From Flavobacterium kingsejongi (GTDB lineage Bacteria > Bacteroidota > Bacteroidia > Flavobacteriales > Flavobacteriaceae), in assembly GCF_003076475.1 (NCBI RefSeq), contig NZ_CP020919.1, positions 1,302,001-1,366,000 on the forward strand: a DNA stretch of 64,000 nucleotides, in the 5' to 3' direction. Below the pieces are notes generated by a model that saw only the letters and a program-made list of their open reading frames with translations, was not told the origin of the DNA and did no database searches. Below, in pieces: positions 23,473 to 43,499 of this stretch. The first letter of the stretch is position 1. Each line of letters starts with the position of its first letter. Made by a program: the position numbers and the translations under genes.

Positions 23473-24012
23473 TTATAGTATAGTTATGGGGATAAATTTT
23501 AGTAGTTTCCATTCCTTATGAGATCGTGTAAGAATCCATAATGCAATCGTACCCTGATCTTTAACGGAGACAATAGCATAATTGCCATTTTTAGTATACA
23601 ATGGTTTTGAGATCGTATAATGACTTGAAGTATTTGTAATACTGATTTTGTTTTTAAGATGGGGTGGCATTTTTTCTACCTCCCATGTTTGCCTTTTGAA
23701 CTGACTTGACATGTAATTATAATTGGATACAGAAAAGACTTCTTTTAATAGCAGTGAATCATTTGTTCTTTTTGCTCCGGAATGTTCCGATAACCAAACA
23801 GCATTGGTTTCCTGTTTCAATAGTAAAGAGTCTTTAAAATTTTCCTCGAACAATGTTTTAAGGTATAGTGGTGTACTGGCATTTGGATTAAGAATTATGT
23901 TATCCTTATCCTTTAGTATAACTGTGAGTACCTCATAATCTTTAGTATTGTTTTCAAGAGTGCCAGATGGAAGTAATTGAGGGACGAGTAGTAAGAACAG
24001 TACTAACTTCAT
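23473..24012 (-). CDS. Secreted hypothetical protein at the end of the small-secreted-protein array
   Basis: 179 aa with a signal peptide (MKLVLFLLLVPQLLPSG). The mature part is predicted beta-rich and ends KEWKLLKFIPITIL. It does not clearly match either of the two small families upstream but lies in the same orientation, 25 nt after the previous gene, so it is probably the last gene of that operon. No known domain recognised. Confidence 0.65.
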   Translation of the reverse strand: MKLVLFLLLVPQLLPSGTLENNTKDYEVLTVILKDKDNIILNPNASTPLYLKTLFEENFKDSLLLKQETNAVWLSEHSGAKRTNDSLLLKEVFSVSNYNYMSSQFKRQTWEVEKMPPHLKNKISITNTSSHYTISKPLYTKNGNYAIVSVKDQGTIALWILTRSHKEWKLLKFIPITIL

Positions 24013-24037
24013 ACGATTTAATTTATTTACATTCTAT

Positions 24038-24415
24038 TTAATCTTCTACAATCCAAGTTTTTTCTACAGGATATAAAAAGCCAATTCCTGGATCTTCTTC
24101 TTTATAAATCCATAGGTCAAAAAAATCAGCGTAGTAGAAATCGGGATCCTTTTTTAGCCGGTTTTTTAGTTTTGCTTTTACAATAGCATTGAGATTTTCG
24201 ATTGTAGTGATATCATTTTTAATGTTAGAATAGGACTGGTTTTTTTTGAGTGCAGGCTGTTTTTTTATTTTAAAAGATTGGCCACCTATGTGGAATACCT
24301 CTTTTACCAATTTCATAGTTAGATTTTTAGTTTCAAAAACCAATACTTTCATTTCTTTTTGCTGCGCTATAGTGCTAAAAGAATATAATAAAAGGAGTAC
24401 TACTATTTTTTTTAT
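24038..24415 (-). pseudogene. Small secreted protein (family B-like) with ATA in place of its start codon
   Basis: An ORF with an internal ATG begins at 24352 (104 aa), but the same frame extends upstream into a convincing signal peptide, KKIVVLLLLYSFSTIAQQKE, which is preceded by ATA (24413-24415) where ATG is expected. No other ATG/GTG/TTG is available before it. The C-terminus (FFDLWIYKEE ... LYPVEKTWIVED) matches the YPVxW ending of family B. Either the start codon decayed, a rare ATA start is used, or the base is a sequencing error. Without the signal peptide the protein would stay cytoplasmic. Confidence 0.6.
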
Positions 24416-24427
24416 TTTGAAGTAATT

Positions 24428-24921
24428 TTATTCTACAGGGATAGCATCTACTTTCCAAATCAGGTATGTTCCTCGGGATATAGGATGTATAATAAATAAG
24501 TTTTTAGCATAAATGTATTTCAATTCATGGTTGATAAACTCTTCCCTGGTGATATAGGGGATATTGTTTATAGTGTTGGTCCGGATAGGTTTTTCAATAC
24601 TCCAATACTCTAATGATTTAACTATTGTATTTCGTTTGGAAAACATTGGTGGATTGTTTTTACATTTTCCAGAGTTTCTTTTTTTGGCTTTTTTCTTTCA
24701 ATGGCAGTTGCAGGGGTACTTTTGTTTTTCAGAGATCCTTTTCTATAAATTCCAAAAGAAGCTCTTGTACTATCCTTTGATATGGAATAAATTACTGTTT
24801 TGTCTAATTGTAGTAAGACATAAAGACTGTCCCGATTTTTTGCTAATGCTACACTTTGGTTCTCTTGCGAATAGCATAGGGCAGTAAAAGATAGTATATA
24901 AGCTATCAAAACTGTTTTCAT
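24428..24921 (-). pseudogene. Family A small secreted protein, frameshifted
   Basis: The first frame (24921 to 24622) encodes a signal peptide and DKTVIYSISKDSTRASFGIY, then runs off into QCFPNEIQ-stop. The downstream frame (to 24428) continues with NNPPMFSKRN, NIPYITREEF and TYLIWKVDAIPVE, matching the C-terminal halves of the paralogs. Adding one A to the A5 tract (plus-strand T-run 24657-24661) would rejoin the frames as VKNNPPMFSKR. The intact product would be about 164 aa. Same family as 24959, 25464 and 26879. Confidence 0.75.
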
Positions 24922-24958
24922 AATGATTTTAATTTACTAAGAAATAGTATAATCTCAA

Positions 24959-25441
24959 TTATTCCCTGGCCATTAAACTGGACTTCCATATTAAATAGTT
25001 GCCATAATTATCAGGCTGAATTATAAAAATGTGTTTTCTATAGAGGTACTTTTCCAGATCAGATACAAATTCATACCGCGTGATATAATTTAAGTTCTTT
25101 AATGAATGCACTTTTATCGGAGGATACATAGACCAAAAGTTTAATGTTTCTGAAATAGATAATGAGGATTTTTTTGTGACAAAAAGTGGCTTGCTGTTTT
25201 TTATATCTTGCCTGTCTTTCCTTTTAGGCATATTCGTGTTTACAGGATTTTTTTTTGGATATCCTTTTTTGTAAACTCCAAAAGAAGCCCTTGTGCTGTC
25301 TTTTGATATGGAGGAAATTACTGTTTTATCCAATTTTAATAAAAGATATAGTGTGTCCTGCTTTTTCTCCTGACTAAACAACATAGCATTGGACGAAATA
25401 ATTAGTAAAAAAACGACTCTTATTTTAAAGGTTATTGACAT
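24959..25441 (-). CDS. Family A small secreted protein
   Basis: 160 aa: signal peptide (VVFLLIISSNAMLFSQ), then LDKTVISSISKDSTRASFGV, a basic Lys-rich middle, LNYITRYEF, and FIIQPDNYGNYLIWK at the C-terminus. These landmarks (SKDSTxxSFxxY, NxxYITRxEF, FIIxxxxxxYLIWK) define family A in this locus. Function unknown. It lies in a minus-strand array headed by a metallopeptidase-like lipoprotein, so a partner, inhibitor or immunity role is possible but unproven. Confidence 0.72.
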   Translation of the reverse strand: MSITFKIRVVFLLIISSNAMLFSQEKKQDTLYLLLKLDKTVISSISKDSTRASFGVYKKGYPKKNPVNTNMPKRKDRQDIKNSKPLFVTKKSSLSISETLNFWSMYPPIKVHSLKNLNYITRYEFVSDLEKYLYRKHIFIIQPDNYGNYLIWKSSLMARE

Positions 25442-25463
25442 GATGTATTTTTATTTTGTTATA

Positions 25464-25967
25464 CTATTCATTAAGCTGCCATGGAGCCAATTGTACATTC
25501 CATAGTAGATAATCATTTTTGTCAGAACGGTGAATTATAAAATAGTTTTTTGTCCGGTCATATTCTAATGTTCCATTTATAAATTCTTTTCGTATGACAA
25601 AAGGAATATTTGTAATGGATTGCATATGATTTGGTTTTTCCCGACCAACGAAATAATAATAAAGCTTTAATGGTTTTTCTTGTTTTGGAGGATGTTTTTT
25701 AATCCACTCTAATTGCTTTTTAGCGACAGGACCATTTTTAGTCTTCTTTTGTCGAATGATTTGTGTTTCGTATTTCTCGGTATAAATACCGAATGAGAAT
25801 AATGTTGAATCTTTACTGAAAGAATAAAACGAAGATTTCTCCGGGTCGTCTAATTCCAACAAAATATATATTGTATCCGAACTTTTTTTCGATACCATTT
25901 CCTTTTCCTGCGAATGACATATTAGGGAAAGTAAAAACGTAATACTAATCGTTACAATAGCTTTCAT
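25464..25967 (-). CDS. Family A small secreted protein
   Basis: 167 aa. The signal peptide (MKAIVTISITFLLSLICHSQ) is almost identical to those of family B genes, whereas the mature part is family A: FYSFSKDSTLFSFGIY, WIKKHPPKQEK, NIPFVIRKEF, FIIHRSDKNDYLLWNVQ. This suggests exchange of 5' ends among array members. It starts 2 nt after the stop of... the next upstream gene (25970), indicating tight translational linkage. Confidence 0.72.
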   Translation of the reverse strand: MKAIVTISITFLLSLICHSQEKEMVSKKSSDTIYILLELDDPEKSSFYSFSKDSTLFSFGIYTEKYETQIIRQKKTKNGPVAKKQLEWIKKHPPKQEKPLKLYYYFVGREKPNHMQSITNIPFVIRKEFINGTLEYDRTKNYFIIHRSDKNDYLLWNVQLAPWQLNE

Positions 25968-25969
25968 AA

Positions 25970-26425
25970 TTAATCCGTTGCATTTTGATTTCTCCAGGTT
26001 ACGGGGTATACGACAAACTGTTTGTCGTTAATGATCTCAATTAGGAATGTTTTAAAAACGGCATTCCTATCAGATAAATTTATAAACCAGGTATATTTTT
26101 TAATGAGAGCCTCTTTGTTTCTATAATACCATTCTTTTTCCAATACATCTATTTTTGTAACAGGAGTAATTTTATAATTTTTTAATTTGGAAAGCGGGAG
26201 AGTGTCGGATTTCTGTTTATTCTTATAGAGTAAACTTACATTTTTATCCATAAGATTAAATACATATCCCTTTTCTTTCTCTCTATAAAATTTATAACCT
26301 AAATTCCGTACGGAATCCGTTTTGTTCTTTTCAAACAAAAAATAAACTGTTTTCTTTTTTAAGTTTTGTGAGTATCCTAAAATTGAAAAAAGAAACGTAA
26401 TACTAATTGTTACAATAGCTTTCAT
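25970..26425 (-). CDS. Family B small secreted protein
   Basis: 151 aa from the ATG giving MKAIVTISITFLFSILGYSQ; an ORF four codons longer exists but overlaps the previous gene. Mature part: KKKTVYFLFEKNKTDSVRNL, GYVFNL, KSDTLPLSKLKNYKITP, FKTFLIEIINDKQFVVYPVT ending WRNQNATD. Nearly identical to the gene at 30071 in the N-terminal two thirds and at the C-terminus. Function unknown. Confidence 0.72.
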   Translation of the reverse strand: MKAIVTISITFLFSILGYSQNLKKKTVYFLFEKNKTDSVRNLGYKFYREKEKGYVFNLMDKNVSLLYKNKQKSDTLPLSKLKNYKITPVTKIDVLEKEWYYRNKEALIKKYTWFINLSDRNAVFKTFLIEIINDKQFVVYPVTWRNQNATD

Positions 26426-26429
26426 AGTT

Positions 26430-26861
26430 TTAATCAATTACTCCCTGATTTCGCCAGGTAACTGGATATATGACAAATTCGCTGTTGTCAATGATTTCTA
26501 TGATATATGTTTTGAAATATGAGTTCTTATCATAAGAATAAGGGATTCTATTATATTTTTTTATAAGCCACTCCTTGTATTTATTTTCAAATTCTGCAAT
26601 TTGTAACGTATTGGAAATAGAATAGTTTTTTAATTGACTTATTGGGAGTGTATCTGGTCTTTGTTTGACTTCGTATAAGAAACTTTCACCTTTATTAGGT
26701 AAGTTAAAAACATATCCTTTTTCTTCTTTATTGAAGAATTTAGATACTCTATCTTTTTGTCTTTTTTCGAACATCACATAAATCGTTTTTTTTTCGATTT
26801 TTTGACCCTGACAGAAACATGAAAAAAGAAGCGTAATACTAATCGTTACAATAGCTTTCAT
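26430..26861 (-). CDS. Family B small secreted protein
   Basis: 143 aa: signal peptide MKAIVTISITLLFSCFCQGQ, then KKTIYVMFEKRQKDRVSK, GYVFNL, PDTLPISQLKNYSI, FKTYIIEIIDNSEFVIYPVT ending WRNQGVID. A diverged member of family B. The stop lies 4 nt before the next array gene's start and its own start is 17 nt after the preceding gene, consistent with one transcript. Confidence 0.72.
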   Translation of the reverse strand: MKAIVTISITLLFSCFCQGQKIEKKTIYVMFEKRQKDRVSKFFNKEEKGYVFNLPNKGESFLYEVKQRPDTLPISQLKNYSISNTLQIAEFENKYKEWLIKKYNRIPYSYDKNSYFKTYIIEIIDNSEFVIYPVTWRNQGVID

Positions 26862-26878
26862 ATTAGGTGATTTTAGAT

Positions 26879-27376
26879 TTATTCTACACTAATGACGTTT
26901 GCAGTCCATTTCAGGTAAGTACCATTATCTAATTTATGGATGATGTAGACTGGATTTGCAATTATGAAATTTTTATTACTGACTCTAAATGTTTCATCTG
27001 TAATATAGTTTAGTGTTGTTATATCATTTATTATTTCTGGTTTCTTAAAAGTTATAAAGTTGGTAGAAATAGGAATATATTCTTTACGGATTTTTGTGGG
27101 AGGGTGTTTCTTGATGTACTCTAAAGTATATTTTTTAGGTTTTTCCCTGACATAAAATGCATCTCTGGATTTTTGAGTTTCATATCCTTTTCGATAAATC
27201 GCAAACGAAGCACTGGTAGTGTCTTTTGAAAATTGAATTTTTGAAAAGGATTTATTAGTCAGATAAATGTTAGATACTTTTTCAGCAGATTCGTTTATCT
27301 GTGCAAATAACAATGAAAAAACTGCAGAGCTCAAATAAAGTACCATAATTGAGAAAATCTTGATTATTGTTGGCAT
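26879..27376 (-). CDS. Family A small secreted protein overlapping the metallopeptidase stop
   Basis: 165 aa from the ATG at 27374-27376 (MPTIIKIFSIMVLYLSSAVF); the longer ORF to 27451 lies within the upstream gene. It has QFSKDTTSASFAIYRKGYET, YIKKHPPTKIRKE, LNYITDETF and VYIIHKLDNGTYLKWTANV. Its start codon lies 13 nt inside the upstream lipoprotein gene, so translation is probably coupled. This makes it the most direct candidate partner of metallopeptidase copy 1. Confidence 0.75.
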   Translation of the reverse strand: MPTIIKIFSIMVLYLSSAVFSLLFAQINESAEKVSNIYLTNKSFSKIQFSKDTTSASFAIYRKGYETQKSRDAFYVREKPKKYTLEYIKKHPPTKIRKEYIPISTNFITFKKPEIINDITTLNYITDETFRVSNKNFIIANPVYIIHKLDNGTYLKWTANVISVE

Positions 27377-29145
27377 GGTAAATTTGTGTTTATATAATTT
27401 TTGATTGAATTGATGATTTGTATTCTTTCTGTTTGAGGTATATTTTGCCAAGCGACTGTTGGATTAGGAGGTAATCCAGTACTATCACTTATTTCTCCTT
27501 CTCCCATTAATCCGACCCAGGCTAACATCTGATATATTTCATTACTTAGGCCAGGTCTAAACTCCTGTAAAAATTGAACTATAACGTTTCTGTAATGTTG
27601 AGCCATCATCTGATGGTCAAGAACACCGGAATTGGTGGTGTTATATTCGTATCTGATGTAATAATCATAAAGACCAGGGAAATTATTACTGAGGTTATTC
27701 ATAAAATTAGTCCATTCCTGTAAATTGTAATTGTTAAAGTTTACGTGTGGCATGCCGGCAGCACCTAACAATTTTCTTAATATTTCAGCATGTATAATTT
27801 CATGCATGAAAGTACGGGCGATATCAAAAGCAGGTCGATTCAGTTTATTTAAATTAAATTCTATTTCGACTATATAATTATTCGATTGATGTGTGATTGC
27901 ATTTCTTTGATTTTCAGCAGGTAGCGTTTTTGCACTCAACTTCAAATGTGCTACAGAAAAATCACTATCAAAGTTACGAAGATAATTTTGGAAAGTAGGT
28001 GCGCCGCCGAGCTGGGTAAAAACACCCATAAGGCATTCGTTATCTTTAAAAGATTTGTCGATGATCACTTTGTAGGTAAAATCCACATCGCCTCCTTCCA
28101 TCAGCGCATCAAGGGCTTCGCGGGCGAATTCGGCAGCTTTATCAAAATTATCCGATTCAAGAAAATTACTAAAGAGCTGTTGCAATGCCGCCGGGGCATT
28201 CTGCCACCAACTTTTCTGTTCAGGAGTCAGGCTGAGTGTAAAGCGGCGCAATGGTGGAATAGTGGGTAGCGGTGAAGTCCAGGGATTTCCGTTTCCGTCT
28301 TCGATTCCCGGGGTTATTGGGGCATTTGGATCTGTAGGTTTTGGCGGCCCTCCCCCTTGTCCCGGATTCCCGGAAGAACCACTATTCCCTCCGGAAGAGC
28401 TTCCCGAAGACCCGGATGCAGAACCACCATTGGAACTTCCTCCGCCCTCATTACAAAATTTAAATACCAATTGTACAATGTCCGGGGTTGGCATTCCTGG
28501 TGTTCCATAATGCACACAGGTTTGCCCGTCCGTGATATTTTGCCAGGTATGCTCGTTACTGGCACACATGGAGCCGGGGGTAATGCTTTCACTCTAGGTA
28601 TTGCAGCCTCCGTCATCAATGGCCTTGGCACTGAATGCGGCAGCTTTGGATTCCCATCCGTTGAGTACTGTAATGGTTAAGGGGCGTTTAAAATCAAAAG
28701 CTTTTCCGTTGGCATATTCCAGTTGTGCGGCTTCGGTCATTTCGTATTGTAGCAGGTACACCTTATAACTGCCATCGGATTGGAGGGAAAGCAGGAGATT
28801 TTCCAGGAATCCATTGTTTTCTTCACGGTATAAAGGGAATGTAACCGAATGGTAATTGCCCTTATCAATCCATAAAAAGTTTGGCGTAGCAATGCCATAA
28901 CCGGAAGTGGCTGCCTGTTGTGTTGTAGGCTTGTTATTAGCAACAGGGAGCAATTGTAGCTCTTTTAGTTTTTGGAGCAGCTTGGGATGATCTTCCAGAT
29001 CTTCCCAATGGATCATGCGGTAGTGGGCAGGGGTTTCCTGTCCAGGTTTGGCTACAGGATTTTCTGTAGTGACATCATCATTTTGGCAACTGCCGGTTAT
29101 TGTGAGCAGTACTACGAGTATCATCCAATTGTAAAATTTCCCCAT
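27364..29145 (-). pseudogene. Metallopeptidase-like lipoprotein, copy 1, interrupted by an amber codon
   Basis: Started at MGKFYNWMIL (29145), with a lipoprotein signal ending TGSC. TAG at 28594-28596 follows GGCNT; the intact copy at 30501 has TGG (Trp) here (CTA versus CCA on the plus strand), so one G-to-A change split the gene. The downstream frame is open to 27364: a Gly/Ser-rich linker (about residues 230-265), PITPGIEDGNGNPWTSPLPT, LRRFTLSLTPEQKSWW, and a C-terminal domain with MHEIIHAEILRKL (HExxH zinc motif) and MMAQHYRN. Full length would be 593 aa. Nearly identical to copy 2 up to VAHLKLSA, then strongly diverged. Confidence 0.85.
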
Positions 29146-29169
29146 GCGAACATTGTTTTGGTTGTTCTT

Positions 29170-29177
29170 CAAAGCTA
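29170..29177 (-). promoter_or_regulatory. Candidate -7 element of copy 1
   Basis: Minus-strand TAGCTTTG fits TAnnTTTG and lies 25 nt before the MGKF start. The same element and about 120 bp of leader are conserved before copy 2. The -33 TTG is not obvious. Confidence 0.45.
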
Positions 29178-29289
29178 AGTAAGTTGAGAGACAGTACTAT
29201 ACCCCAATAAGTCATATTAGTATCAGAATAGGGTAAAAGGCAAAATAATTCGGGAGCAGGTAAAGGTGGGTGTAAAAAGTTAAGATTGC

Positions 29290-29605
29290 AATAGGATGCT
29301 AATCGTTATAAGTTATGTCATTTTGATTAATGCACAGTCTTTAATAACAATAGATATCCTCTTACTAATAAAAAGGGCTCCTCAATTTTATGAACCTTTG
29401 TTTCTGATTTTTTTGACTTTTGAGCACTCCTTTTCAGGATATTCCTTTTCTGTTTTGCCTGGTTGCGGTCAAACTTTGTGTTTATCTTTTATGATTGAAT
29501 CACCTACCAAATTATCCGATTGCGGAGTTAAAGCGCTATCCGGTATCTTCTGGAAATAAGAGTAGCTATAGAGGAATAGGACTGATTATTACAAATTGCT
29601 TTCAT
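29290..29605 (-). pseudogene. Strongly decayed member of the small-secreted-protein array
   Basis: The minus strand starts ATGAAAGCAATTTGTAATAA, a damaged version of the MKAIVTIS start common to the array. Short in-frame pieces follow in another frame (SYFQKIPDSALTPQSDNLVG, KTEKEYPEKE), with several stops. It sits 20 nt after the restored stop of the gene at 29626, at the position expected of a further array gene. An antisense ORF over it (29296-29559) has no support as a gene. Confidence 0.55.
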
Positions 29606-29625
29606 ACTTCTTAAGATTTAAATAA

Positions 29626-30068
29626 TTACTCAATTGCGTATATCCATTTTACAGGATATAGCATACCTTTTAAATCGCTTTTTTTCTCATAGATATATAT
29701 ATTATTGAAAATATCATCAAAATTATAGGGAGGATTTCTGATGATATTCCCTTTTTCTTTGTTGATTTTTCAAAAGCGGAAGCTTTTTTTTCTAAAATAG
29801 ATTTAACTTTCTGGTTTACCATTTCAATAGGAAGGAGTTTGTCCTTAATCTCTTTATAATAGATAGGTACCGCACCGTTTTTGACGCTGTCATAGATAAA
29901 GTAACTATTGTCAATTTTTGGTTTCAGATAAAAATATTTAAATTTCAAACTTTCCTTAATAGTATTGGTTGTGCTCTCTTCAAAGAGTATATAGATAGTT
30001 TCTTTTCCCTGAGAATGGCCTATCAGGGAAAGTAAAAACATAATACTAATCGTTACAATAGCTTTCAT
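29626..30068 (-). pseudogene. Family B-like small secreted protein, frameshifted near the C-terminus
   Basis: Starts MKAIVTISIMFLLSLIGHSQ and reads KETIYILFEESTTN, IYYKEIKDKLLPIE. The frame as written ends at 29670 in a hydrophobic tail (ILPIILMIFSIIYIS) unlike any paralog. One extra A in the A5 tract (plus-strand T-run 29752-29756) would instead give KGNIIRNPPYNFDDIFNNIY and LKGMLYPVKWIYAIE, matching the family B ending, with a stop at 29626. So the present C-terminus is probably a frameshift product of 132 aa. Confidence 0.72.
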
Positions 30069-30070
30069 AA

Positions 30071-30523
30071 TTAATCCGTTGCATTTTGATTTCTCCAGGT
30101 TACGGGGTATACGACAAACTGTTTATCGTTAATGATCTCAATTAAAAAGGTTTTGAAGACTATGTTTCTGTCCCTATAATGAAAAAGACCTTTTCCTTTT
30201 GTAATTACTTCATAATTGGTTTTGTACCATTCTTCCATCATTGCATCCAATTTGCTTATGGGAGTAATTTTATAATTTTTTAATTTGGAAAGCGGGAGTG
30301 TGTCTGATTTCTGTTTATTTTTATACAATAAAGTGATTCTTCTATCCATAAGATTAAATACATATCCCTTTTCTTTCTCTCTATAAAATTTATAACCTAA
30401 ATTCCGTACGGAATCCGTTTTGTTCTTTTCAAACAAAAAATAAACTGTTTTCTTTTTTAAGTTTTGTGAGTATCCTAAAATTGAAAAAAGAAGCGTAATA
30501 CTAATCGTTACAATAGCTTTCAT
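30071..30523 (-). CDS. Family B small secreted protein overlapping the metallopeptidase stop
   Basis: 150 aa: MKAIVTISITLLFSILGYSQ, KKKTVYFLFEKNKTDSVRNL, KSDTLPLSKLKNYKITPI, and the FKTFLIEIINDKQFVVYPVT ending. It starts 23 nt inside the 3' end of the intact metallopeptidase gene, so translation is coupled. Compared with 25970 it is nearly identical except in the segment between KITP and FKTFL, where the two differ. Candidate partner of copy 2. Confidence 0.76.
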   Translation of the reverse strand: MKAIVTISITLLFSILGYSQNLKKKTVYFLFEKNKTDSVRNLGYKFYREKEKGYVFNLMDRRITLLYKNKQKSDTLPLSKLKNYKITPISKLDAMMEEWYKTNYEVITKGKGLFHYRDRNIVFKTFLIEIINDKQFVVYPVTWRNQNATD

Positions 30524-32276
30524 TATTTATAATATTTGTTTGTTTTGATTTAATGTTACTTTGTTCATTTGTAGTAAGGTTGTTCCACGCTACAGTACCT
30601 TCTAGCCCTACCCAGGATAATGCTTCATAAAAATTGTCTTCATGTGTATTATTGTCGTAATTTTTTAGGGTTTGTTTTATAATATCCCGGTAATGTTGTG
30701 CCATTTGTTCATGCTGAGGACTAGTCGGAGTAGAATTAGAATTTTTATATCGCGTATAATAATCAAACAATCCAGGAAAATTAGGCATAAGGTTTTTTAG
30801 GAACGTATTCCATTGTTCTGGAGTATAATTATTTGGATTGAAATCGGCAAGCCCCTCAACACTTGATAATTTACGATATATTTCAGCATGTATCAGCTCA
30901 TGAATCAGAGCCAGGGCAGTATATATTTTAGGATAATTAATTAATGAACTTTCAAGGTTAGGGTCTATATTCATAATGATTTCAATAACATAATTATAGG
31001 TTCCAAAGGTTATTGCTCCTGAGGAAGGGTATTGAGGATAATTCACAAAAAAATTAGAGTCAGCACTCAACTTCAAATGTGCCACAGAAAAATCACTATC
31101 AAAGTTACGAAGATAATTTTGGAAAGTAGGTGCGCCGCCGAGCTGGGTAAAAACACCCATGAGGCATTCGTTATCTTTAAAAGATTTGTCAATGATCACT
31201 TTGTAGGTAAAATCCACATCGCCTCCTTCCATCAGGGCATCAAGGGCTTCGCGGGCGAATTCGGCAGCCGTGTCAAAATTATCCGATTCAAGAAAATTAC
31301 TAAAGAGCTGTTGCAATGCCGCCGGGGCATTCTGCCACCAACTTTTCTGTTCAGGAGTCAGGCTGAGTGTAAAGCGGCGTAATGGCGGTAGAGTCGGTAG
31401 CGGTGAAGTCCAGGGATTTCCGTTTCCATCTTCGATTCCCGGGGTTATTGGGGCATTTGGATCTGTAGGTTTTGGCGGCCCTCCCCCTTGTCCCGGATTC
31501 CCGGAAGACCCGCTATTTCCTCCGGAAGAGCTTCCCGAAGACCCGGATGCAGAACCACCATTGGAACTTCCTCCGCCTTCATTACAAAATTTAAATACCA
31601 ATTGTACAATGTCCGGGGTTGGCATTCCTGGTGTTCCATAATGCACACAGGTTTGCCCGTCCGTGATATTTTGCCAGGTATGCTCGTTACTGGCACACAT
31701 GGAGCCGGGGGTAATGCTTTCACTCCAGGTATTGCAGCCTCCGTCATCAATGGCCTTGGCACTGAATGCGGCAGCTTTGGATTCCCATCCGTTGAGTACT
31801 GTAATGGTTAAGGGGCGTTTAAAATCAAAAGCTTTTCCGTTGGCATATTCCAGTTGTGCGGCTTCGGTCATTTCGTATTGTAGCAGGTACACCTTATAAC
31901 TGCCATCGGATTGGAGGGAAAGCAGGAGATTTTCTAGGAATCCATTGTTCTCTTCACGGTATAAAGGGAATGTAACCGAATGGTAACTGCCTTTTTCAAT
32001 CCATAAAAAGTTTGGCGTAGCAATGCCATAACCGGAAGTGGCTGCCCGTTCTTTTGTAGGTTTGTTTTTGGCAGCGGGGAGCAATTGTAGCTCTTTTAGC
32101 TTTTGGAGCAGCTTGGGATGATCTTCCAAATCTTCCCAATGGATCATTCGGTAGTGGGCAGGGATTTCCTGTCCAGGTTTGGCTACAGGATTTTCTGTAG
32201 TGACATCATCATTTTGGCAACTGCCGATTATTGCGAGCAGTACTACGAGTATCATCCAATTGTAAAATTTCCCCAT
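30501..32276 (-). CDS. Metallopeptidase-like lipoprotein, copy 2 (intact)
   Basis: 591 aa. Lipoprotein signal MGKFYNWMILVVLLAIIGSC (lipid Cys20). Residues about 30-215 form a conserved N-terminal region with several Cys; a Gly/Ser/Pro-rich linker follows (about 230-265), then PITPGIEDGNGNPWTSPLPT and a helical region LTPEQKSWWQNAPAALQQLF. The C-terminal domain has HELIH (459-463), the HExxH zinc-binding and catalytic signature, and a conserved later His (QMAQHYRD, His528) that could be the third ligand. It is probably anchored to the outer membrane with the peptidase domain exposed. Function is not described to my knowledge; the modular layout and coupled small gene recall polymorphic effectors. 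Confidence 0.82.
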   Translation of the reverse strand: MGKFYNWMILVVLLAIIGSCQNDDVTTENPVAKPGQEIPAHYRMIHWEDLEDHPKLLQKLKELQLLPAAKNKPTKERAATSGYGIATPNFLWIEKGSYHSVTFPLYREENNGFLENLLLSLQSDGSYKVYLLQYEMTEAAQLEYANGKAFDFKRPLTITVLNGWESKAAAFSAKAIDDGGCNTWSESITPGSMCASNEHTWQNITDGQTCVHYGTPGMPTPDIVQLVFKFCNEGGGSSNGGSASGSSGSSSGGNSGSSGNPGQGGGPPKPTDPNAPITPGIEDGNGNPWTSPLPTLPPLRRFTLSLTPEQKSWWQNAPAALQQLFSNFLESDNFDTAAEFAREALDALMEGGDVDFTYKVIIDKSFKDNECLMGVFTQLGGAPTFQNYLRNFDSDFSVAHLKLSADSNFFVNYPQYPSSGAITFGTYNYVIEIIMNIDPNLESSLINYPKIYTALALIHELIHAEIYRKLSSVEGLADFNPNNYTPEQWNTFLKNLMPNFPGLFDYYTRYKNSNSTPTSPQHEQMAQHYRDIIKQTLKNYDNNTHEDNFYEALSWVGLEGTVAWNNLTTNEQSNIKSKQTNIINNESYCND

Positions 32277-32379: not shown

Positions 32380-32856
32380 TTCTGGAGCAGGAAACGGGAA
32401 CTGCCCGATGGGGCGATCTGGATGGACTGCTTTTGTACTGTGGCTCATGCAATGGATAGCAATTGGTATACCGCATCCATAATTATGGGAAGCGACAATG
32501 CAGTTGCTGTATTTGAGGGAAATTCCACTGTAAATAAAGGCAATGCTGTACATCTATAATCGGCTCTGCAGATTGTTTGCGGAATAACAAAAAGCAAAGA
32601 AGGCGCGACAAGAAGCAAAGAAGGCGCGACAAGAAGCAAAGAGGGCGTGACAAGAAGCATAGAAGGCGTGACAAGAGGTAAAGAAGGTGTGACAAGAAAT
32701 AAAGAAGGTGTGACAAGAAATAAAGAAGGTGTGACAAGAGGTAAAGAAGGCGTGGCAAGAAGCATAGAAGACGTGACAAGAGGTAAAGAGGGCGTGTCAA
32801 CAAGCATAGAAGACGTGGCAAGAGGTAAAGAAGGCGTGCCAATAATTATACAATAG
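32380..32856 (+). other. Open frame with an internal stop, ending in the tandem repeat (possible gene relic)
   Basis: The plus-strand frame from 32380 is open and reads protein-like sequence (GAIWMDCFCTVAHAMDSN, SDNAVAVFEGNSTVNKGNAV), hits TAA at 32557-32559, and continues in the same frame through 12 heptapeptide repeats to a TAG at 32854. There is no good start codon. It begins where the duplicated leader of copy 2 ends, so it may be the 3' remainder of an older gene displaced by the array. 32857-33096 is very AT-rich with no gene; it probably holds the promoter of the next gene. Confidence 0.35.
32593..32844 (+). repeat. Tandem repeat, 12 units of 21 bp
   Basis: Twelve contiguous 21-bp units of the type AGCAAAGAAGGCGTGACAAG-A. 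In the plus frame each unit encodes seven residues: SKEGATR, SKEGVTR, SIEGVTR, GKEGVTR, NKEGVTR, SIEDVTR and so on. Units vary at a few codon positions and become less regular at the right end. Confidence 0.92.
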
Positions 32857-33096: not shown

Positions 33097-34050
33097 ATGA
33101 ATCCAATTGAAGTTGTCCGTTTGTTTCCAGGATCTGATACCGCCATGACCGGTACCGCGAGGGTGATCCATGAGTTATTCCGTCAGGACCTTGCTGTCTT
33201 TATGGCTTTTGATGTGAGTTTGAATATTGATTTTGCAGAGGCTTTTTTAGCCAGTATCGAAGCCGCTGAAATAGTGGTAGCCGATAGTGCTATTATCGAC
33301 CAGCAGGTAAGCCTTACCGAGGATGCTTATGATGCTATGGACCAGGCGAGGATAAAGTACAATGAAGTGAAGTATTTTGTAGTAAAGGCTTTTCCGAGTG
33401 CCGGAGTACAGGGCGAGTTTGGCCTCAATGGCTATCCGAAAGCCCGCCGGAGCCGAAACCAGATGGCACAATTTCTCAATGAAATGCACTTGGCCTGTGT
33501 CAAATACCAGGAGGGCCTCATCGCTGCCGGATATAATGCCGAGGCTATCGCTGCTATCCTTCCGTTACGGAATGAGTTAATTGAAAAAAACACATCCCAG
33601 AAAATCTTTCGAAAACAACGCCCAAAGCTGACCGAAGACCGAATCAAGATACTGAATAGTTGTTATAAATACCTCAGCCAGATACTGGCGGCAGGGCAGT
33701 TAGTATTTCCCACCGAATATGCCAAACAAAAGCAATATGTGTATAAGCCGGTGAGCCGGAAAAAAGAAACGGAGGATTACAGCGATACCTTGTCACCGGG
33801 TAGTAGTGTAATGATAGCAACAGTAGCCTATACTCCGGAATCGTTACTTGTTTTTTATAATACCGGATTGGGGACAATGAGTTTTTGCCTGGCGTTGGAA
33901 GGGACAACGGAAGGCAATTGGGTGACCTTACCTTCCGGGGCGGAGATTACCAAAACCATGGCGCAGCTGCAGGAAGGCGGTACACAGCTTATGGTGCGCA
34001 ACGACGATTTGGACCGGGAAGGGAGTTATGCGCTGGAAATCCATTTTTAG
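33097..34050 (+). CDS. Conserved-looking cytoplasmic protein of unknown function
   Basis: 317 aa with no signal peptide. The first two thirds are mostly helical (DAYDAMDQARIKYNEVKYFV, NQMAQFLNEMHLACVKYQEG); the last third is predicted beta (SVMIATVAYTPESLLVFYNT, GTMSFCLALEG). GC content is higher than in the repeat and array region to the left, suggesting a return to resident DNA. No family recognised. A candidate structured RNA with a terminator follows 62 nt downstream. Confidence 0.75.
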   Translation: MNPIEVVRLFPGSDTAMTGTARVIHELFRQDLAVFMAFDVSLNIDFAEAFLASIEAAEIVVADSAIIDQQVSLTEDAYDAMDQARIKYNEVKYFVVKAFPSAGVQGEFGLNGYPKARRSRNQMAQFLNEMHLACVKYQEGLIAAGYNAEAIAAILPLRNELIEKNTSQKIFRKQRPKLTEDRIKILNSCYKYLSQILAAGQLVFPTEYAKQKQYVYKPVSRKKETEDYSDTLSPGSSVMIATVAYTPESLLVFYNTGLGTMSFCLALEGTTEGNWVTLPSGAEITKTMAQLQEGGTQLMVRNDDLDREGSYALEIHF

Positions 34051-34763: not shown

Positions 34764-35645
34764 ATGGGGATTAAAGCGACAACTGTAGAGGAACAGATTC
34801 AAAAACTTATTGGTAGAGGAATGGTTTTTGAAAATGGTCAAGAAATTGAGAAGGCAAAAGAGATTTTGTTAGATATAGGATATTATAGATTAGGTTTTTA
34901 TTGGAATCCTTTTGAAATAGATAAAAAACATAACTTTGCGAATGGAACTAAATTTTCTGATGTTGTCTGTTTGTATTACTTAGATGTAGATTTAAAAAAC
35001 ATCTTGAATAAAGCATTAAATAGGATTGAAATTAATTTAAGGACACAAATTATTTATCATGTGTCAAATAATTATTCGGATAATCCTACTTGGTTTGCAA
35101 GTAAAAAAGTGATGGTTTCAAAATTTGTTGACGAATTTCCTTTAAAGAGTTATACTGAAAAGTTTAAGGGGAGTAATAAACCTATAAAAAGACATCATAG
35201 TAATTATCCAAATGATATTTATGCACCTGCATGGAAGACTTTGGAATTTCTAACATTTGGAAGTATTTATACAATTTATTATTCTTTAAGAGATCCTGTT
35301 TTAAAAGGAGAAATCGCAAATTATTATGGTATAAAAAAGATAAAAGTTTTTGAAAATTTTTACAATACAATTGTTTTCATTAGAAATATTTGTGCTCATA
35401 GCGGTATACTTTATGATTCAAACACCCCAAAAGAAATTGAAACTACCCCATTGATTAAATTTAATAATAATAATAGACATTCTTTAGATTCCTCAATAAA
35501 AGTAATTTTGTATTTTCTTGAAAGGATTTCGCCGAGTAGAAAGAAAATAATTGAAGATGAAATAATTACCTTGTTTGATGCCTATGATCATAATCCAAAA
35601 ATCCAAAAAATAATAATTGAAAAAATTGGGTATTTGAAAAAATAA
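34764..35645 (+). CDS. Abi_2-family (AbiD/AbiF-type) HEPN-like abortive infection protein
   Basis: 293 aa with Abi_2 hallmarks: the N-terminal GYYRLGFYWNPF (residues 39-50), IEINLRTQIIYHV in the middle (about 88-100), and RNICAHSG near the C-terminus, an R-x4-H motif (Arg207, His212) typical of HEPN ribonucleases. Abi_2 proteins are phage-defence or toxin proteins, and recent work links the AbiF branch to cognate non-coding RNAs and to the ancestry of Cas13. The gene is AT-rich compared with its neighbours, sits alone with a long leader and its own terminator, and looks like a laterally acquired defence cassette. Confidence 0.85.
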   Translation: MGIKATTVEEQIQKLIGRGMVFENGQEIEKAKEILLDIGYYRLGFYWNPFEIDKKHNFANGTKFSDVVCLYYLDVDLKNILNKALNRIEINLRTQIIYHVSNNYSDNPTWFASKKVMVSKFVDEFPLKSYTEKFKGSNKPIKRHHSNYPNDIYAPAWKTLEFLTFGSIYTIYYSLRDPVLKGEIANYYGIKKIKVFENFYNTIVFIRNICAHSGILYDSNTPKEIETTPLIKFNNNNRHSLDSSIKVILYFLERISPSRKKIIEDEIITLFDAYDHNPKIQKIIIEKIGYLKK

Positions 35646-41480: not shown

Positions 41481-41488
41481 TTTTTGTG

Positions 41489-41562
41489 CTCCCCCTCTTG
41501 GGCTCGAACCAAGGACCCTCTGATTAACAGTCAGATGCTCTAACCAACTGAGCTAAGGAGGA
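41489..41562 (-). tRNA. tRNA-Asn (anticodon GTT), copy 1
   Basis: Cloverleaf on the minus strand: acceptor TCCTCCT/AGGGGGA, D-arm TAGCTCAGTTGGTTAGAGCA, anticodon loop CTGTTAA, T-arm CTTGG-TTCGAGC-CCAAG. CCA is not encoded. Identical in sequence to the copy at 43426. Confidence 0.95.
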
Positions 41563-43418: not shown

Positions 43419-43425
43419 TTTTGTG

Positions 43426-43499
43426 CTCCCCCTCTTGGGCTCGAACCAAGGACCCTCTGATTAACAGTCAGATGCTCTAACCAACTGAGCTAAGGAGGA
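43426..43499 (-). tRNA. tRNA-Asn (anticodon GTT), copy 2
   Basis: Same 74-nt cloverleaf as copy 1, on the minus strand; flanking sequences are similar but not identical, so this is an old tandem duplication rather than a product of the IS insertion. Confidence 0.95.

Follow-up and report, generated by a model that had tools for sequence, protein, structure and literature searches.

A probable polymorphic toxin/immunity locus on a lipoprotein scaffold in Flavobacterium kingsejongi

Why would a bacterium keep two genes for metallopeptidase-like lipoproteins, each at the head of a string of genes for small exported proteins? The question is raised by positions 23473 to 32276 of a 64,000-nucleotide stretch of the Flavobacterium kingsejongi genome (contig NZ_CP020919.1), here called the window. 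Every gene of this region lies on the minus strand. The two lipoproteins, copy 1 and copy 2, end in a domain with an HExxH motif (HEIIH and HELIH, respectively), and the small proteins include members of two families, A and B. A first-pass annotation, made from the sequence alone, had described both lipoproteins and the small exported genes behind them, and the open reading frames (ORFs), together with a reading of the sequence, confirm that description. The locus is most probably a polymorphic toxin/immunity system carried on a lipoprotein scaffold.

The first line of evidence is the link between the domain and the gene that follows it. Relatives of the domain were taken from a genome scan, of which the best 80 of 99 loci were used. 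A table of 81 loci was made up of those with a readable downstream side among the 80 genome loci, one viral-contig locus, L004 and the window; it leaves out L044 and L084 (no ORF with HE..HAE; downstream gene out of view), L003, which comes from the window's genus, and L005 and L006. Genes were called and signal-like N-termini recognized by simple scripts, the latter with a crude rule rather than SignalP. In all 81 loci the next gene shares the strand of the domain gene; it follows within 20 bp in 79 and overlaps the domain gene in 48. Its product has a median length of 149 aa and a signal-like N-terminus in 78 loci.

Removing the near duplicates L080 and L087 leaves 79 loci. A gene that combines four properties (same strand, gap of 20 bp or less, 110-200 aa, signal-like N-terminus) lies directly downstream in 75 of these 79, directly upstream in 2 of 69, and in 36 of 648 other adjacent gene pairs. 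L036 was kept as a miss; its next ORF is the remainder of its own split toxin gene. A second set of 27 toxin-bearing loci, which overlaps the earlier one and is not independent of it, gave 24 of 27 for all four properties and 27 of 27 for strand. The arrangement recurs in dozens of loci, with 23 genera among those placed. A small gene directly downstream and tied to the C-terminal domain is the partner position seen in polymorphic toxin systems.

The partners are diverse. Because signal peptides can chain unrelated families together, the first 25 residues were masked before clustering, and an unmasked phmmer clustering, which put 77 of 81 first partners in one cluster, was rejected. With masking, single-linkage clusters place 59 of 81 first partners in a B superfamily and 12 of 81 with A; nine of the other ten are small proteins with a signal-like N-terminus and one is the split-toxin-gene piece. 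Masked profiles give a similar division: B only 56, A only 12, both one, neither 12. The first-pass annotation had proposed a modular effector followed by an array of immunity or inhibitor genes, and held that homologues regularly found apart from A and B neighbours would count against this. The next gene belongs to an A or B cluster in 71 of the 81 loci, which supports the proposal and makes the linkage of domain and partner general.

The same slot is also held by groups that phmmer leaves unjoined: besides the B superfamily and A, these are L007/L010/L012, L025/L026 and singletons. Constant features of the B superfamily are few, namely a Q after the signal peptide and a final Y-V-W motif, and a modelled B protein gave no fold match and no solved relative. 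A clusters apart from the B superfamily. The two were at first viewed as unrelated, a view dropped after a profile comparison (probability 95.8 if signal peptides are included and 32.3 if they are removed, the latter from 50 aligned columns at the C-terminus) and after one of the 81 first partners, that of L074, matched both masked profiles. A and B may be very distant relatives. The two families of the first-pass annotation are not the only ones. The gene at 23473 encodes a third, with relatives near toxin domains at E values of 1.4e-6 (L007), 2e-5 (L060) and 5e-4 (L013), and so looks like a third partner family.

Partner families were compared with trees of the domain and of the N-terminal part. 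Trees were built by a quick method with SH-aLRT support from 74 rows, of which 73 could be labelled by partner family and 49 had long N-terminal parts; partial and duplicate loci were left out. On the tree of the HExxH domain, partner family changes 19 times among the 73 labelled rows, against a mean of 43.6 and a minimum of 39 in shuffles. Copy 2 groups with B-partnered loci (11 rows, support 97; one row has no visible partner) and copy 1 with A-partnered loci (10 rows, support 98; the partner of L037 falls outside both clusters). For the 49 rows with long N-terminal parts, the C-domain tree has 14 changes and the N-part tree 29, while shuffles average 28.7 and 28.6. The domain tree predicts the partner family, and the weaker N-part tree does not. 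Genus changes number 19 on the N-part tree (mean 21.3, with 9 of 300 shuffles as low) and 18 on the C-domain tree (0 of 300). Because the N-part tree is weak, the contrast between the two trees is supportive rather than decisive.

The two copies show the same division of scaffold and domain within one genome. Copy 2 consists of a lipobox (IGSC-QNDD) with a polar/acidic export-type signal, a Gly/Ser/Pro-rich linker, a helical segment and the C-terminal HExxH domain. The copies agree at 55-60 of 60 nucleotides per 60-nt block over a stretch that begins some 90 nt upstream of the start codon and ends near position 31105 of copy 2. Past that point, identity falls to 46/60 and then to 21-41/60 (full 60-nt blocks). 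G+C content drops at the break from 47.3% to 32.0% in copy 2 and from 46.7% to 33.4% in copy 1, around a window mean of 40.1%; the small genes range from 27.9 to 33.0%. The first partners after the break also differ, being a B gene for copy 2 and an A gene for copy 1, each overlapping its lipoprotein gene (Table 1). A conserved N-terminal part with an exchangeable C-terminal domain is characteristic of polymorphic toxin systems, and it is seen both in this break and in the other C-termini found elsewhere.

Those other C-termini were reached through the scaffold. As a database query, the N-terminal 290 residues of copy 2 retrieve only the two copies and one further protein at E ≤ 0.001, so database search alone cannot show a scaffold family. 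A profile made from the 49 N-parts found scaffold relatives better than this single query. It listed 29 ORFs without an HE..HA[ET] pattern, two rows of which are one piece of copy 1. Ten were inspected: two JAMM-like proteins, three with a divergent HExxH, one DUF6973 cassette, three without an assigned type, and a TPR protein taken as a false positive. The remaining ORFs are mostly short N-terminal pieces.

JAMM-like motifs (HxHP...SxxD or HVH), recognized by eye, stand at the C-terminus of proteins in L033, L028, L005 and L006 that have related N-parts or linkers. The genes behind them encode a 141-aa protein in L033 and L028 and a DUF6705 protein in L005 and L006. These lipoprotein-type genes may be a sister toxin type on a related scaffold. 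Divergent HExxH ends occur on related N-parts or linkers in L035, L013 and L083, and a linker cassette in L029 carries DUF6973 (68.6 bits, cut-off 27). A small gene adjoins each of these alternative ends. The HExxH domain itself is also found on other scaffolds. In L086 it sits on an 864-aa exported protein without a lipobox. A 4342-aa RHS protein has a distant version at its end (E 1.6e-8 in a genome search), the best stretch of which scores 34.3 bits against 8.5 for the best of 1000 shuffles; a 146-aa gene that matches neither partner profile begins 9 bp behind. This is the one case seen of the domain on a known delivery scaffold, another feature of polymorphic toxins.

What kind of domain is it? 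A confident model (pLDDT 92.6) predicts a zincin-like fold. H160, E161 and H164 of the HExxH motif lie on a helix (151-175), as expected of a zincin, and the conserved H223 and H229, on the helix 221-241, are candidate third zinc ligands. For the first-pass annotation, a predicted structure lacking a zinc site would have counted against its reading; this model offers a candidate site. With the C-terminal part as query, a database search gave 96 proteins, both copies included, of which 94 keep HE..HAE. Their named sources are Bacteroidota such as Flavobacterium, Tenacibaculum, Polaribacter, Salegentibacter, Riemerella and Capnocytophaga, together with Gracilimonas. Invariance of residues is not claimed from the genome-contig loci, because these were found with patterns that contain HAE and H..MA..HY.

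The only family resemblance that recurs is to SprT-like proteins (PF10263), at E ≤ 0.01 in 18 of 65 domains (best 1.6e-6). Copy 1 scores 13.3 bits and L003 15.4 against a curated cut-off of 25.6, and copy 2 has no match to this model at E ≤ 5. The domain differs from the SprT-like/Spartan family in staying below the cut-off in copy 1 and L003, in its exported context and in a C-terminal signature of its own, QHxxMAxHY ... W.GL. The lipoprotein ORFs and five small proteins have no Pfam or NCBIfam match above cut-off, in agreement with the earlier statement that no characterized family is involved, and no PADLOC model at E ≤ 0.1. PHROGs gave no match at E ≤ 0.01 for copy 2 and three small proteins. 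Tox-MPTase2 (PF15638), which is present in the library, matches neither copy at E ≤ 5 and none of the 65 domains at E ≤ 0.01.

Polymorphic toxin loci also tend to be recognized by spare parts, and these are present. Two or more domain-bearing ORFs occur in 15 of the 79 loci, some of them short, without a signal and alternating with partner genes (L013, L016). Two or more partner-family genes occur in 17 of 79, with up to five in one locus; L013, L016 and L029 are examples of spare cassettes and immunity arrays. Within the genus, up to 8 candidates per genome were scored for the domain and up to 13 for the partner profiles; presence counts are lower bounds, and counts of partners with no toxin near are upper bounds. 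Outside the window's genome, 42 B-superfamily matches were found; a domain lies no more than 20 bp upstream of 21 of them and no more than 2.5 kb upstream of 28. For the 18 A matches found, these numbers are 8 and 13. The remaining 14 B-superfamily and 5 A matches look like orphan immunity genes. For 11 of the 14 lone B-superfamily genes, the roughly 3.4 kb read holds no toxin-domain match. In three genomes of the genus (L150, L151 and L153), orphan partners occupy one shared spot between facing genes for 323-aa and 367-aa proteins, a possible acquired-immunity site.

These observations bear on the other explanations. The strongest of them, itself improbable, is a housekeeping or nutritional surface metallopeptidase that attacks no other cell, with a dedicated exported inhibitor to silence the protease during export. 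Such a pair would have the strict one-to-one linkage, the exported partner and the retained catalytic motif. It would not be expected to leave spare cassettes, immunity arrays and partner genes without a detected toxin, to be patchily present (a domain match at E ≤ 1e-6 in at least 82 of 299 genomes of the genus, the window's own included), or to swap its C-terminus, even for domains without HExxH.

It is more improbable still that the small proteins are chaperones, processing partners or peptidase substrates in a system for envelope remodelling or adhesion. Co-assortment and gene overlap would suit any obligate partner, and the B model offers no solved relative to argue from. Several groups that phmmer leaves unjoined fill one slot, however, and both the orphans without a detected toxin and the arrays of up to five genes suit immunity better.

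Finally, the locus could hardly be just two decaying paralogous operons without present function, the array being duplication debris: copy 1 contains a stop, at least three small genes are broken and decayed DNA lies between the copies, but neither copy 2 nor its B gene is damaged, and dozens of loci across many genera show this arrangement.

In a toxin/immunity system, the lipoprotein would be exported by the Sec pathway, lipidated and probably displayed on the outer surface. The linker would present the C-terminal domain, a predicted zinc peptidase of zincin-like fold that resembles SprT. This domain would harm related competitor cells on contact or after transfer, in or beyond their periplasm. 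Gene position and co-assortment point to an immunity role for the partners: the product of the directly downstream gene, exported through its signal peptide, would bind and block the cognate peptidase domain in the periplasm of the producer. Recombination would swap the C-terminal half together with its partner gene behind the conserved N-terminal part, creating new specificities, and displaced cassettes and spare immunity genes would accumulate downstream. Of this scheme, sequence and model show the modularity, the strict linkage of the genes, their co-assortment, the export signals and the zincin-like fold, whereas toxicity, inhibition, the periplasmic site, surface display, the route of delivery and the target are inferred.

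How does the locus compare with known systems? TANFOR toxins of Bacteroidetes mostly have a signal peptide and a variable C-terminal toxin domain, with an immunity gene directly downstream. According to the available text of the paper (Jana, Salomon and Bosis 2020, PMC7073777), they are large proteins with an N-terminal TANFOR domain, the toxin tested is a DNase, and the downstream proteins were grouped by similarity clustering since one alignment does not fit them. The locus is alike in its Bacteroidetes host, variable C-terminus and diverse downstream partners, here proposed to give immunity. It differs in being a lipoprotein with a predicted peptidase; the text available of PMC7073777 contains no word starting with "lipoprotein" or "peptidase".

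Myxobacterial SitA, as presented in the accessible part of PMC5562445, is an outer-membrane lipoprotein toxin with a polymorphic C-terminal domain (the N-terminal part is common to two of three) and a downstream immunity gene. As a rule its C-termini resemble nucleases and work in the cytoplasm, the toxin is delivered through outer-membrane exchange by TraA/B, and homologues were not found there outside Myxococcales. As with SitA/SitI, the toxin candidate is itself a lipoprotein with a polymorphic C-terminus and a downstream partner; unlike them, its domain is a predicted peptidase and the partners are exported.

The kind of system is already known, because Zhang et al. 2012 (PMC3482391), in the portions available, list metallopeptidase toxins as well as a lipobox immunity protein. 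Tox-MPTase1-5 are toxin domains with a C-terminal HExxH, usually carried by RHS scaffolds, and no immunity family is given in their rows. Tox-JAB-1 is paired with Imm65, a Bacteroidetes immunity protein with signal peptide and lipobox, and the Amoebophilus APD1 and APD2 are lipobox prodomains with polymorphic C-termini. The Pfam matches that copies 1 and 2 have at E ≤ 5 include no Tox-MPTase model.

By analogy, the locus seems to resemble SitA and TANFOR in its working, and no test makes it a member of either. Copy 2 matches none of the NCBIfam models at E ≤ 1; the library includes TIGR02542 (T_forsyth_147), which we take to be TANFOR, but controls matched nothing either, so this search has no demonstrated sensitivity. 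The literature searched, mostly without subscription papers, holds no description of this scaffold, domain and partner set.

A broader proposal is rather doubtful. Bacteroidota may possess a widespread class of lipoprotein-borne peptidase toxins, displayed on or exchanged between outer membranes, that attack the envelope of relatives without an injection machine. Specificity would lie in a zincin domain that is exchanged rapidly and in an exported inhibitor to match, drawn from one of several strongly diverged families, one possibly of a new fold. The class would be a counterpart of SitA acting by periplasmic proteolysis. To our knowledge, how Bacteroidota without a type VI secretion system fight their neighbours is largely open. 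VipA/TssB (PF05591), the one marker sought, has no match in the window's own genome; the positive control was E. coli and not a Bacteroidota type VI system. As far as the available text of Zhang et al. 2012 and of the SitA and TANFOR papers goes, the toxin literature has little on peptidase toxins whose immunity proteins are exported. The family supplies dozens of toxin/partner pairs sorted by specificity class, as well as orphan partner genes, so that laboratory strains would allow direct tests of target, delivery and inhibitor mechanism. In addition, the small proteins are candidates for protease inhibitors.

Table 1. Features of the locus (window coordinates) and related genes in other loci
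Feature	Position	Strand	Remarks
Copy 2 lipoprotein	30501..32276	-	intact, 591 aa, C-terminal HExxH (HELIH) domain; proposed toxin
Copy 2 variable C-terminal end (~residue 406 to stop)	30501..31059	-	32.0% G+C, diverged from copy 1
B, 150-aa exported protein	30071..30523	-	23-nt overlap with copy 2; proposed cognate immunity protein
B-like exported protein	29670..30068	-	3' end disrupted; B profile continues in another frame
Decayed remnant	29300..29612	-	leader-like stretch at start; read by eye; no ORF of at least 80 aa on this strand
Copy 1 lipoprotein	27364..29172	-	one in-frame stop; C-terminal HExxH (HEIIH) domain open
A, 165-aa exported protein	26879..27376	-	13-nt overlap with copy 1; proposed immunity protein of copy 1 domain
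B family exported protein	26430..26861	-	
B family exported protein	25970..26425	-	83% identity to 30071 product
A family exported protein	25464..25967	-	carries 28-nt leader of B genes
A family exported protein	24959..25441	-	
A family gene, frame-broken	24434..24921	-	matches the profile twice, one match containing a stop
B-superfamily gene, subtype ending ...VEKTWIVED	24038..24418	-	broken: one stop inside match
Third exported small family, 179 aa	23473..24012	-	kin of genes near toxin domains in L007, L060, L013
28-nt leader	25940-25967, 26398-26425, 26834-26861, 30041-30068, 30496-30523		
JAMM-like lipoprotein-type genes	L033:3787-5082, L028:4989-5978, L005, L006		by eye

The gene order given by the first-pass annotation is as seen in Table 1, although the stop in copy 1, which splits it into ORFs of 192 and 401 aa, went unmentioned there. 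Copy 2 is the only intact toxin gene of the genome, and a search of all 4.22 Mb found no third lipoprotein copy. Polymorphic toxin loci typically contain broken spare copies. Among the candidates scored, all A and B matches at E ≤ 1e-6 in this genome lie inside the locus; the B profile has four further matches at E 0.002-0.007.

Traces of exchange may be visible among the small genes. Five of them, four of B type and one of A type, have a 28-nt leader in common (identical in four, one mismatch in the fifth). Even when 3 mismatches are allowed, the genome contains no further occurrence of it. Diverged gene bodies sharing one leader suggest recombination, for which the leader may serve as an anchor. 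The two strings are 92% identical over a 162-nt stretch that covers the end of a B gene and the start of the gene after it, although the genes that follow belong to different families.

L087, from a viral collection, and L019, a contig of a Flavobacterium metagenome-assembled genome, have the same toxin, partner and neighbour layout; L087 may be a mislabelled piece of chromosome. Just upstream of copy 2, a 21-bp tandem array (12.2 copies, 83% matches) covers 32587-32842. The locus is adjoined by an AbiD/Abi_2 abortive-infection gene on the plus strand (34764-35645; Pfam 1.7e-41, PADLOC 3.8e-48; 26.2% G+C). Between them lies a plus-strand ORF of 317 aa (33097-34050) with no match in Pfam, PADLOC or PHROGs and only a weak one in NCBIfam, to the PQLLE family (13.7 against 80 bits). 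Further along, two tRNA-Asn genes with the same anticodon stand about 1.9 kb apart, at 41488-41562 and 43425-43499.

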